Below, one piece after another: positions 40,610 to 46,623 of a DNA stretch of 47,249 bases (positions within the stretch are counted from its first letter, which is position 1; each line of letters starts with the position of its first letter). Below the pieces are notes generated by a model. The model did not search any database and was not told where the DNA came from. It saw nothing but the letters and a program-made list of their open reading frames with translations. The position numbers were made by a program, and so were the translations under genes. Source of the DNA: Candidatus Saccharimonadota bacterium (GTDB lineage Bacteria; Patescibacteriota; Saccharimonadia; Saccharimonadales; UBA4665); NCBI GenBank assembly GCA_027459325.1, contig DAIDIO010000007.1, positions 1-47,249 of the forward strand, in the 5' to 3' direction.

Positions 40610-40966
40610 GTCAGATTATCAGCTGATCGCGTGCCTAAAAGCACGAGGAAAGTCCGGGCAGCAATAGGGAAAAGGTAGTTACTAACGGTAACCGGGGGCA
40701 ACCCTAGGGAAAGTGCCACAGAAACGATACCACTAAGACTTGTTCTTAGAAAGGGTGAAATGAGTGGGGTAAGAGCCCACAGTTTATATCGGTGACGATA
40801 TAAAGAGGTAAACCCTACCTGCTGCAAGGGGATGGATCCTTTGAGCCTAAAGCTCAAAGTGTCCCGCTACAAGGATCTCATCATTCAACCGCTTGAACCT
40901 ATGTGGCAACACTGGGTCTAGATAGATGATCAGCCTAGACAGAACCCGGCTTACAGATAATCTGAC
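40610..40966 (+). ncRNA. rnpB: RNase P RNA, class A
   Basis: About 357 nt. GTCAGATTATC at the 5' end pairs with GATAATCTGAC at the 3' end. The universal 5' core GAGGAAAGTCCGGGC is at about 40643-40660 and ACAGAAACGATACC, the P4-side conserved text, at about 40719-40732. It is transcribed from the -10 just upstream and ended by the terminator at 40971-41001. A minus-strand ORF over it is a shadow. Confidence 0.93.
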
Positions 40967-40970
40967 TAAT

Positions 40971-42603: not shown

Positions 42604-42632
42604 TTGACTTTTTAAGACGCTTATGCTAGATT
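42604..42632 (+). promoter_or_regulatory. Promoter of the plus-strand RNA or leader
   Basis: TTGACT and TAGATT, 17-nt spacer, with TG one base before the -10. Confidence 0.55.
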
Positions 42633-42638
42633 AGAAAT

Positions 42639-42832
42639 TGTAAGTCACAAAAACAAAAACGGTACAAAAACAAAAAAATCAGGCTTACCGCTTAAGCAAT
42701 CATTCAGGAGTATTGCCTAAGTAAACGTCGCTCTGTATAGCCCTAAAGGCTATCGGAGCGGTCAGTCATTGCCGATCGGGTGATAAGCGCTCTTACAGTA
42801 ATATTTAGCAGCGGATTTATCACCCACGGCGC
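42639..42832 (+). ncRNA. Predicted structured RNA or long leader, plus strand
   Basis: About 200 nt without an ORF. An A-rich region with three CAAAAACAAAAA-like tracts lies between CGGTA and TACCG, then come stems CTTAAGCAAT/ATTGCCTAAG, CGCTCTGTATAGCC/GGCTATCGGAGCG and GGGTGATAA/TTATCACCC (29-nt loop). It either ends as an RNA near 42832 or runs into the gene at 42860 as a leader. There is no clear terminator. tmRNA is unlikely because a T-arm and tag are not evident. Family unknown. Confidence 0.5.
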
Positions 42833-42859
42833 CATTTTCTCCTGTAAACCTTATCAATT

Positions 42860-43240
42860 ATGCATATAAAAAGCCTCACACATAAAAAGCTAGCAACCAC
42901 ATTGCTAGCTTTGTTAGTTTTAGATGGCTATTTCTATGGAAGTCTCAACAGCACTAAGGTTGCACCGTTTGTGCTAATAATTGGCTTAGTCATTCTGGCA
43001 ACAAACATTTATACCCTTTTTTACGGTGTAATTAGCCTTATACGGCTATATGGAATACCTATTAAAAAAAAGAAAAGAGTAAGTTTGTATGCAACTCTTT
43101 TTCTCGGCTTATTAATAGCTTTGCAGTCGATGGGGGCTTTGTCTGCGAAAGATTTTATTGTAATGGTATTACTAGCCGTAGTAGGCTACGGATATGTTAG
43201 TCATACGGGCATGACCAAGCAAAAAGAGCAGAACTTGTGA
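42860..43240 (+). CDS. Small polytopic membrane protein
   Basis: A 126-residue protein with four predicted helices (about 12-28, 33-60, 74-90, 97-113) and a Lys-rich loop near 68-74. No family recognised. Its leader is the structured stretch at 42639-42832. It precedes the proline-rich protein by 22 nt but that gene has its own -10. Confidence 0.65.
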   Translation: MHIKSLTHKKLATTLLALLVLDGYFYGSLNSTKVAPFVLIIGLVILATNIYTLFYGVISLIRLYGIPIKKKKRVSLYATLFLGLLIALQSMGALSAKDFIVMVLLAVVGYGYVSHTGMTKQKEQNL

Positions 43241-43249
43241 TCAAAGCTG

Positions 43250-43255
43250 TATAAT
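43250..43255 (+). promoter_or_regulatory. -10 box for leaderless proline-rich gene
   Basis: TATAAT (with TG just before it, one base off the usual extended spacing) ends 7 nt before the ATG at 43263. Confidence 0.5.
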
Positions 43256-43262
43256 ATATGGC

Positions 43263-43667
43263 ATGACTCCATCGAATAATGTCGGCATGGAATTACCCGC
43301 GCCGGTCAATGAGCAATTGCCCCCGGTTCAAATTCCCGAGCTGACCACTAACCAACCAGAAATATCGGCCTCGCCTTTTGAAAGGGCGCCGGCTCCACCG
43401 GTGGCGCCGCCCATAAATATGCCTGCACCTCCTCCGCCAATCGTTCCCGCTGCTAGCGTGCAGCAAACTTCAGTTACCGACAATAGTCAGACAACTGGCT
43501 TAACTGCCGATGATGGAGATGTTATTGAAAGAGAGTGGGTTAACAAGGCTAAGGCAATTGTTGAGCAGACAAAGGACGATCCATATAAACAAAGCGAGGA
43601 GCTCAAGTTACTTAAATCTGAATATCTTCAGAAGAGATACAACAAGACGCTAAAGCAGAGTATTTAA
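43263..43667 (+). CDS. Proline-rich protein with conserved C-terminal helical domain
   Basis: A 134-residue soluble protein. The first 80 residues are low-complexity Pro/Ala/Val-rich, the last 50 (DGDVIEREWVNKAKAIVEQTKDDPYKQS and on) form a charged helical module that recurs in CPR proteins encoded next to VirD4-like ATPases. It ends 10 nt before that ATPase and is probably its partner. No enzyme motif. Confidence 0.7.
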   Translation: MTPSNNVGMELPAPVNEQLPPVQIPELTTNQPEISASPFERAPAPPVAPPINMPAPPPPIVPAASVQQTSVTDNSQTTGLTADDGDVIEREWVNKAKAIVEQTKDDPYKQSEELKLLKSEYLQKRYNKTLKQSI

Positions 43668-43677
43668 ACATTTTAGT

Positions 43678-46623
43678 ATGAGTAGTTTAATCATTTTATT
43701 GGCAGTAATACTCCTTATCGGTCTCTTGGGAGGACCGCTTGGTTTTATTTATTTCCGAAAAAACCGGCGGGAGCTGAAGAATTATGAGCGTGGCTTAAAG
43801 ATTGTGCCACTCATGATCCATTTACCACCCCCCAGTGATGATATTGATGTGGGAGCCAGGGATGCTAGAGATGTCACTGAAGAAACGATAAGCCAGGCAA
43901 CCACAATGTATAACATTATTGCTAGCACCATTAAATCCGACTTCAAGAGTCGCTTTTATGGCCAACGGCACTTTGCATTCGAAATTGTTGGTCTGCAGGG
44001 CAAGGTATATTTTTACGCAGCCGTACCAATTACGTTGGTTGAGGTTGTAAAGCAAGCAATTAACAGCGCGTATCCTACAGCGAGGCTAGAGGAAGTGGCA
44101 GAACATAACGTGTTCAGCCCAGTTGGCCGTTTGAGCGGCACTATGGGTGGTGAGCTGACCCTGAAAGAAAGCTTTGCTTACCCAATAGCTACTTACCAGG
44201 ATTTAAAGAGAGATGGCATGCTGTCACTGCTCAACGCCTTAGGTGCCTTAGGTAAGGAAGACGGAGCGGGGATTCAGTTTCTTGTCAGACCGGCTCAAAC
44301 ATCATGGCGTAAAGAAGCCAATGAGTTAGCCGATCGTAAGCGTAAGGGCGAAAAGTCTTTAAGCTTTGGTGGTTTGGCAAAGGATTTAATCGTAGCCTTT
44401 ACTAAGCCGCCATCAGGGGAAAAGGAAGGTTCGTCTAAGAAAGAATTATCCAATTTAGAGCAATCCACAGTAGATTCTATTGATGAAAAAACCAGGCATC
44501 CGGGTTTTGAAGTGCTTATTAGGGTAGTTGTGTCATCTAACGTCAGCCAGAGAGCTTTAGGAATCTTAAATAATATCGTAGCTAGCTTTAGTATCTATGA
44601 CGCACCAGGTAAGAACGGTTTTAAATACACCATGTCTAAGGATATAGATGAGTTAGTAACGTCTTATATAATGCGGTTCTTTCCTCCGGAACATAATGAA
44701 CATATCTTAAACTCCATCGAACTGGCTACGCTTTTCCATTTTCCAGATGAACGCAATATCCCGACCTCACAATTAATGAGACAGGGATCGAAGCAGGTTG
44801 ACGGACCAAGAGACATACCAGAAACCGGATTGTTACTCGGCTATAACCTATTTAGAGGTGCTAAAAAGCCAATCCGCCTAAGCCTGTCCGACCGGCAAAG
44901 ACACATGTATGTGGTGGGGCAAACTGGTACCGGTAAGTCGACATTCTTAGAGAACCTGGCACTCCAAGACATGATTAGTGGTAATGGCTTTGCTTTCGTA
45001 GATCCGCACGGCGATGCGGCAGAAAAATTACTCGCTATGGTACCAAAAGAACGTACTGAGGATGTTATTTATTTCAGCCCGGCAGAGATGGAATATCCTA
45101 TGGGCCTCAACTTGTTTGAATTTACAACAAATGATCAAAAAGACTTCTTAATACAAGAAGCTTTAAACATGCTATATAAACTGTATGATCCACAACATCA
45201 GGGAATAATGGGTCCACGATATGAACACCTTTTTCGTAATGCCGCATTGACAGTCATGGCCGATCCGGAGGGCGGAACCTTTGTTGATATACCGAAACTA
45301 TTCCGTGATCCTAAATACGTTCAGCAGAAGCTTAAATACGTTAAGGATTTAACTGTATTAGAATTCTGGAACAAAGAAATGCCGGCTTCCCAAAGGTCTA
45401 ATGAGTTTGGTGATGTGGTCAGCTGGTTTGTCAGTAAATTCGGAGCATTTTTGAGCAATGAAATGATGCGCAATATTATAGGCCAAACAAAGAGTGCATT
45501 TGATCTTAGAGATGTCATGGATAATAAAAAGATTTTGCTCGTTAACCTCAGTAAGGGCCGTACCGGCGAACTAAATAGCAAGCTTCTGGGAATGGTTTTT
45601 GTTATGAAGTTCCAGGCGGCAGCAATGAGTAGATCTAATATTCCAGAGGATGACCGAGTAGATTTTAGCTTATATGTTGATGAGTTTCAGAACTTCTCGA
45701 CCGATAGTTTCGCAACAATAATGTCGGAAGCCCGAAAATATCACTTAAATCTTATCGTCGCTAACCAGTTTACAACCCAGTTAACCCCGGAGATCAGAGA
45801 TGCCGTATTCGGCAACATCGGTACCATAACAAGCTTTAGAATTGGGCAAGGGGATCTTGAGGCTCTGGGTAAATACTTCCAGCCGACTTTTGACGAGGAT
45901 GACTTATTGAGATTACCGAACCACAATACTATTGTTAGAACACTAGTTGGCGGTATACCGACAGCGCCGTTTAGTATGGCCACACTGCCGTCCCTCGGGC
46001 AGCCTAACCCTCGTTTAGCAGTAGCTCTAAAACAACTTTCAGCGGCTAAGTATGGCCGACCTAGAAATATAGTTGAACAGGAAATCAATGAGCGTATGAC
46101 TACTAAAGGAGAGGAAATTCCAACTAGACCATCGTCTCCGTTTGCCCCGAATCCAACTGCACCCTTTGGCGCTACTTCTAGCCCAGCCCAAGCTCCGGTT
46201 AAGCCTCCGGCGGCGCCGGGTACATTCCTCGATGAATGGTTAACTAAAAAATCATCAGCAGCGCCCGTCGGTCCTGCTATGCCTCATCCGCAGCCAATGG
46301 CACTCGCTAGTCCTATAAATAGCTACCCTCCATCACCAATGGTTCAAAATCCGGTGATTCCGCCAGCCAGCGCCGGTATTAACAATGAAAATGGAGGGTC
46401 TAAAAACATTTCTAGTGAACAACTAGAAAATCAAGAAGTTCATGAAGTTGCAGCTGAGCTAAAGCAGTCTCTCGATAGCCCGGAATATCTTGCCGAGCAA
46501 CAGATCATGAAAAATAACGCTATGGCATCCGCTAAGCCTGATGATAAAAATCAGCCTGGTGAAGACGATACAATATTTATTGATCATGACGGTAAATTTG
46601 TACAGACAAAACCCGCAGCTTAA
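43678..46623 (+). CDS. VirD4/TraG/HerA-like membrane ATPase
   Basis: A 981-residue protein. One N-terminal transmembrane helix (about 3-25), a large N-domain with ferredoxin-like repeats (about 100-400), then a RecA-like motor: Walker A VGQTGTGKST near 413-422, Walker B-like DFSLYVDEFQNFS near 658-670, VANQFTTQL and the arginine region. A Pro/Ala-rich C-terminal tail (about 810-981) follows. It resembles type IV secretion coupling ATPases and could pump DNA or protein; in CPR such genes occur without a full conjugation set. The next gene is gyrB. Confidence 0.8.
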   Translation: MSSLIILLAVILLIGLLGGPLGFIYFRKNRRELKNYERGLKIVPLMIHLPPPSDDIDVGARDARDVTEETISQATTMYNIIASTIKSDFKSRFYGQRHFAFEIVGLQGKVYFYAAVPITLVEVVKQAINSAYPTARLEEVAEHNVFSPVGRLSGTMGGELTLKESFAYPIATYQDLKRDGMLSLLNALGALGKEDGAGIQFLVRPAQTSWRKEANELADRKRKGEKSLSFGGLAKDLIVAFTKPPSGEKEGSSKKELSNLEQSTVDSIDEKTRHPGFEVLIRVVVSSNVSQRALGILNNIVASFSIYDAPGKNGFKYTMSKDIDELVTSYIMRFFPPEHNEHILNSIELATLFHFPDERNIPTSQLMRQGSKQVDGPRDIPETGLLLGYNLFRGAKKPIRLSLSDRQRHMYVVGQTGTGKSTFLENLALQDMISGNGFAFVDPHGDAAEKLLAMVPKERTEDVIYFSPAEMEYPMGLNLFEFTTNDQKDFLIQEALNMLYKLYDPQHQGIMGPRYEHLFRNAALTVMADPEGGTFVDIPKLFRDPKYVQQKLKYVKDLTVLEFWNKEMPASQRSNEFGDVVSWFVSKFGAFLSNEMMRNIIGQTKSAFDLRDVMDNKKILLVNLSKGRTGELNSKLLGMVFVMKFQAAAMSRSNIPEDDRVDFSLYVDEFQNFSTDSFATIMSEARKYHLNLIVANQFTTQLTPEIRDAVFGNIGTITSFRIGQGDLEALGKYFQPTFDEDDLLRLPNHNTIVRTLVGGIPTAPFSMATLPSLGQPNPRLAVALKQLSAAKYGRPRNIVEQEINERMTTKGEEIPTRPSSPFAPNPTAPFGATSSPAQAPVKPPAAPGTFLDEWLTKKSSAAPVGPAMPHPQPMALASPINSYPPSPMVQNPVIPPASAGINNENGGSKNISSEQLENQEVHEVAAELKQSLDSPEYLAEQQIMKNNAMASAKPDDKNQPGEDDTIFIDHDGKFVQTKPAA

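Follow-up and report, generated by a model that had tools for sequence, protein, structure and literature searches.

The window analysed here, a 47,249-nt stretch of DNA from a Candidatus Saccharimonadota bacterium, raises the question of what lies on its plus strand between a promoter and the gene for a small membrane protein. A sequence-only reading had left two options, a riboswitch-like leader or an independent RNA. We think it probable, judging from the signals in the sequence, that the locus encodes a new structured noncoding RNA, separately transcribed, of the housekeeping type and probably serving as the scaffold of a ribonucleoprotein (RNP). Computational analysis found that two of its hairpins (P3 and P4) covary, that its promoter and A-rich start are conserved, that it is single copy and deeply conserved, and that it has no relative in Rfam. 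We infer that it is made as a discrete, stable transcript.

Promoter and predicted fold

The predicted RNA occupies positions 42639–42838 of the plus strand, with a predicted +1 near 42639 and a predicted end at the U-run 3' of hairpin P4. As the sequence-only reading had proposed, some 200 nt here are free of reading frames (the ORF list of the window has none of 40 aa or more within 42639–42832) and follow a good promoter. This promoter is a sigma-70-type element at 42604–42632 (plus strand; 9/12), comprising the -35 box TTGACT (42604–42609), a 17-nt spacer and an extended -10 (TATGC) in which TG lies ahead of TAGATT (42627–42632). Promoters and terminators were called here from signals in the sequence, and a promoter scan of the region found promoter-like sites around the RNA to be no more numerous than in shuffles; support for the call therefore comes from conservation. 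A TTGAC...-10 element, as defined by a loose pattern, is present at the same site, just 5' of the start motif, in 66/67 homologous loci. In relatives, TTGAC, a spacer of about 17 nt and a -10 box precede GTAAGTCACAAAAACAAAAAC, or a variant of this motif, at matching distances, the spacing from the promoter to this 5' motif being the same, and the promoter and the GTAAG...CAAAAACAAAAA start are present in nearly all homologues.

The fold has a free energy of -59.6 kcal/mol versus -43.4 kcal/mol for shuffles (z -4.3), better than 200/200 dinucleotide shuffles, and it resolves the several strong stems noticed earlier into four predicted hairpins, P1–P4, all on the plus strand. P1 (42640–42688) pairs GTAAGTC (42640–42646) with GGCTTAC (42682–42688) and holds the A-rich CAAAAACAAAAAC in its loop, together with two CAAAAACAAAAA repeats (approximately 42649–42661 and 42665–42678) that account for the repeats in the sequence-only reading. 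P1 lies outside our covariance model; its helix reaches at least 7 pairs in 49% of homologues, versus 17% in shuffles. P2 (42691–42721; CTTA.GCAAT with ATTGC.CTAAG) is a variable hairpin taken from the fold, and neither its sequence nor its length is conserved among relatives.

P3 (42729–42760) is a long hairpin, CGCTCTG.ATAGCC and GGCTAT.CGGAGCG around the loop CTAAA, supported by covariation, with two-sided changes at 12/12 modelled pairs. It runs into a linker, GCGGTCAGTCA (42758–42768, plus strand), that is nearly invariant within the order in alignments A1–A4 and altered in other orders and classes. P4 (42771–42830), likewise supported by covariation and by a match to our model R1 (42727–42839, 97 bits), has as its main stem GGGTGATAA (42778–42786) paired with TTATCACCC (42817–42825). 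GCCG/CGGC lengthens the stem at its base, and CGCT/AGCG, which closes an AU-rich loop, lengthens it at the top beyond a conserved asymmetric internal loop (G/GAU). The main stem had been recognized from the sequence, but the 29-nt loop assigned to it is in fact 30 nt and contains the second stem, CGCT/AGCG. In the window P4 is followed by no more than a short U-run (42835–42838). Across relatives the distance from the RNA start to the end of P4 ranges from about 133 to 311 nt, owing to the variability of P2 and of an insert in P1. We also observed that nearly the same strands recur in P3 (42729–42768; CGCTC..GAGCGGTC) and at the top of P4 (42788–42819; CGCT..AGCGGAT), which could allow an exchange of partners between these hairpins or the display of a repeated binding motif.

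Conservation and covariation

Searches with blastn gave matches in 37/60 relatives, some of them to the A-rich start alone. We built a covariance model, R1, on P3–P4 and combined it with a sequence pattern, which yielded 67 loci whose titles name Candidatus Saccharibacteria or unnamed/Patescibacteria bins. R1 by itself matched 57/195 genomes of the class, with one match per genome (taxonomic ranks here and below are those assigned by the genome catalogue); viral contigs gave 0 matches. Where R1 missed, inspection upstream of C0, the membrane-protein gene, revealed a clear RNA in six families. A further family, f26, has a longer, diverged RNA, which we assigned by its promoter, TAAGCTTTTACAAAAACAAAAA, GGAGCGGTCAGT, P4 and low-scoring matches.

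In 91 aligned matches, 95.5% of cells pair and two-sided changes occur at 22/25 pairs. Two-sided cells number 370, whereas shuffles give 98.7 and structures with slid partners no more than 58; 0/500 shuffles reach the observed covariation, and slid structures likewise fall far below it. The 91-sequence alignment was fitted to the model and hence leans towards it; the unfitted alignment A2 gives the same pairs. Covariation had been proposed as the check on these stems, and they are both kept and covarying. The RNA is thus conserved far beyond chance, deep in Saccharimonadia and in single copy. As a side observation, long forms from another order (L156, L159 and L160) carry ACCTCCTTTTC or ACCTCCTTTCC upstream of the RNA core, and these resemble the 3' end of 16S rRNA (anti-Shine-Dalgarno).

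Separate transcript or operon leader

Three plus-strand genes follow, all outside the RNA: C0 (42860–43240, start codon per ORF finding), a 126-aa membrane protein with an LQSxGxL motif that reads LQSIGQL in the window; C2 (43263–43667), a 134-aa Pro-rich protein; and C1 (43678–46623), a 981-aa VirD4/TraG/HerA-like ATPase with an N-terminal TM. The small membrane protein and VirD4-like ATPase that the RNA had been said to precede are therefore C0 and C1. The C0-C2-C1 operon (42860–46623) is conserved in Saccharimonadales, where the RNA nearly always lies 20–150 nt upstream of it. At approximately 60/67 loci the next gene is C0 (110–150 aa), then C2, then C1; genes upstream of the RNA are more variable than those downstream, and C1 is present in each of the 25 genomes of the class that were tested. 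A separate site on the minus strand (42452–42247), upstream of infC-rpmI-rplT, has a promoter-like TTGACG..TAAGAT (42452–42424) followed by a 17-pair terminator-like hairpin (42286–42247), and is possibly an attenuator leader of that operon.

The synteny with C0-C2-C1 led us at first to favor a cis-leader reading, which the other orders and classes and the missing antiterminator then weakened. In that reading, now the main rival and one we regard as unlikely though still to be weighed seriously, the RNA would be a cis attenuator (riboswitch-like, protein-responsive or of the put/EAR antitermination type) that gates terminator read-through into C0-C2-C1. Its near-fixed place 20–150 nt upstream of C0 across the whole order is what such an element would show, as is a terminator between RNA and gene: an intrinsic terminator (hairpin plus U-run) lies between the RNA and C0 at 28/61 loci, versus 2.7% in shuffles. 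At other loci a U-run follows P4 itself, and some terminators end less than 10 nt from the C0 start codon. A further point in its favor comes from f85, a family of longer RNAs outside Saccharimonadia (L199–L211; see below), where the P4 3' strand (for example GCTCTGTA) forms a second pairing, with a downstream TACAGAGC that overlaps the terminator AGCCT..AGGCTTTTTTT. Covariation there seems to extend to all three strands (by eye, uncounted), so the arrangement looks like a switch.

Within Saccharimonadales, however, we found no consistent antiterminator, as the terminator arm was unusually complementary to the RNA in just 4/26 loci. Nor is the RNA upstream of the neighboring gene on the same strand in all clades. 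In other orders of the class the arrangement is RNA-(X)-C0-pheS-pheT-C2-C1, and an opposite-strand gene (L157, where the RNA match is weak at 29.6 bits), purM (L158) or another gene (L161) intervenes between the RNA and C0 (pheS, pheT and purM were named by eye from sequence). In other classes the downstream genes differ, and in L186 a convergent gene is found. The downstream genes also have -10-like signals of their own: a -10-like hexamer lies just 5' of the C0 ATG at 21/61 loci (approximately 6 expected) and in most f26 loci among those listed, although the family to which the window belongs shows it only weakly. C0 can therefore be transcribed separately, suggesting that its mRNA is leaderless.

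Riboswitch and attenuator leaders and put/EAR RNAs share with the window RNA a structured element between promoter and terminator upstream of an operon; they differ from it in that the window RNA lacks a consistent antiterminator and has a downstream gene that is clade-dependent and can be on the opposite strand. The sequence signals of a discrete RNA (own promoter, covarying structure and own terminator) are all present. Given the promoter, the terminator before C0, the lack of a consistent antiterminator and the copies away from the operon, we favor the second of the two original options, an independent RNA, over the first: the RNA is probably not the leader of C0-C2-C1. The operon is a conserved neighbor, and only possibly a functional partner.

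Possible role and relatives in Patescibacteria

We propose that the promoter at 42604–42632 makes an RNA of about 200 nt whose 3' end would be P4 itself or an intrinsic terminator close behind it, and that would act as a housekeeping-type RNP scaffold. Where covarying stems present unpaired nucleotides that do not vary, these usually mark protein or RNA contacts. Two such places are putative protein-binding sites: the invariant linker (GCGGUCAGUCA) and, in P4, the internal loop (G/GAU) that separates two helices. The A-rich P1 loop may be kept unpaired and so available to a protein or a second RNA. A scaffold role is the most likely one by analogy with OLE RNA, an orphan structured RNA whose architecture the window RNA resembles (PMC12265935, PMC9723947). 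Both are lineage-restricted, with well conserved nucleotides and a small membrane-protein gene nearby, and OLE RNA (RF01071) works through an RNP (PMC12265935, PMC9723947). The window RNA differs in its length (about 200 nt against about 600), in its phylum and in having no sequence or structure match to OLE; its likely relatives outside Saccharimonadia are also unlinked to the membrane-protein gene.

The analogy could be taken further, with the RNA partnering the adjacent C0 and the two acting together at the membrane, as the OLE RNA/OapA arrangement of a structured RNA beside a small membrane-protein gene would suggest. C0 does adjoin the RNA throughout Saccharimonadales. The likely relatives elsewhere, however, adjoin other genes, and a search with the whole Rfam library gave no match to RF01071 in the window, relatives or long versions; we consider such a partnership improbable.

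Comparison with known RNAs bore out the statement that the RNA belongs to no known class. The Rfam/Infernal search proposed for it returned no Rfam 15 family for the window RNA at gathering score and none at E values up to 10; the relatives and long versions gave no match either (E up to 5 in relatives). A literature search found no paper describing such an RNA. The orphan RNAs raiA, ROOL and GOLLD likewise came to light through sequence comparison and are, like it, structured RNAs of bacteria in which a core is conserved; the Rfam search at E values up to 10 matched none of them to the window RNA, and we take them to differ from the window RNA in architecture and phyla.

Could the RNA instead be a diverged 6S, SRP, tmRNA or RNase P RNA? 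It is single copy and widespread with its own promoter, and two housekeeping roles look vacant: in its own genome, an incomplete assembly (91.5%), neither the 6S model RF00013 nor the SRP RNA models RF00169 and RF01854 found a match, and RF00169 matched 0/190 genomes of the class. The other two roles are filled, with RNase P RNA elsewhere in the window (40611–40969) and tmRNA elsewhere in the same genome. The Ffh M domain (PF02978) was detected in 0/10 Saccharimonadia genomes, including the window's own (controls 14/14), which would leave an SRP RNA without a partner, and we dropped the idea of an SRP substitute. Absence of ffh and 4.5S RNA has likewise been reported in Parcubacteria (PMC4508563). 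With 6S RNA (RF00013) the window RNA shares the character of a single-copy, stable-type RNA with a promoter of its own (for the window RNA, a prediction), but it forms several hairpins rather than one rod with a central bubble. No Rfam model matches even the long versions. A diverged housekeeping RNA is largely refuted, and by model search the window RNA is none of these four. That the sequence acts at the DNA level or is a chance repeat, and has no function as RNA, can practically be dismissed, given the compensatory base-pair changes and the conserved promoter orientation.

We searched for relatives of the window RNA in other Patescibacteria with a second model, R2, built from Saccharimonadia alone. 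It gave weak matches, two of which (L188 and L189) were discarded because they lie inside ORFs. The remaining ones share a promoter located approximately 250–400 nt upstream, an A-rich segment that is either CAAAAACAAAAA or a variant, and a CGCY/RGCG top on P4; in L185, L186 and L190 a U-run directly follows P4. A DNA query recovered the f85 RNA, single copy and about 450 nt long, in 14/14 genomes, adjoining recA/dksA-like genes in the loci read. R2 matches its 3' end in 8/13 loci (the weakest at E 0.1), and the f85 alignment has CACTATTCGTC and the A-rich runs as invariant blocks, with a boxA-like GAACCTTGAAAA near the RNA start. These long RNAs are likely related to the window RNA, a link drawn from P4, the promoter and the A-rich segments rather than from a full alignment. 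We tentatively suggest, while leaning somewhat against it, that the window RNA is what Saccharibacteria keep, in shortened form, of an ancestral structured RNA, about 450 nt long, single copy and belonging to much of Patescibacteria (CPR). It would be transcribed like a stable RNA and be essential as part of an RNP, in a phylum whose examined lineages have lost SRP.

Patescibacteria make up a very large share of bacterial diversity and have tiny genomes and mostly unexplored biology; Saccharibacteria are tiny parasitic bacteria among them. The RNA is absent from every RNA library searched. The covariance model, the locus and the cultivable members together provide a concrete target, and the RNA can also serve as a lineage marker. 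A single-copy structured RNA kept across the class, and probably beyond it, is likely to be important to Patescibacteria.
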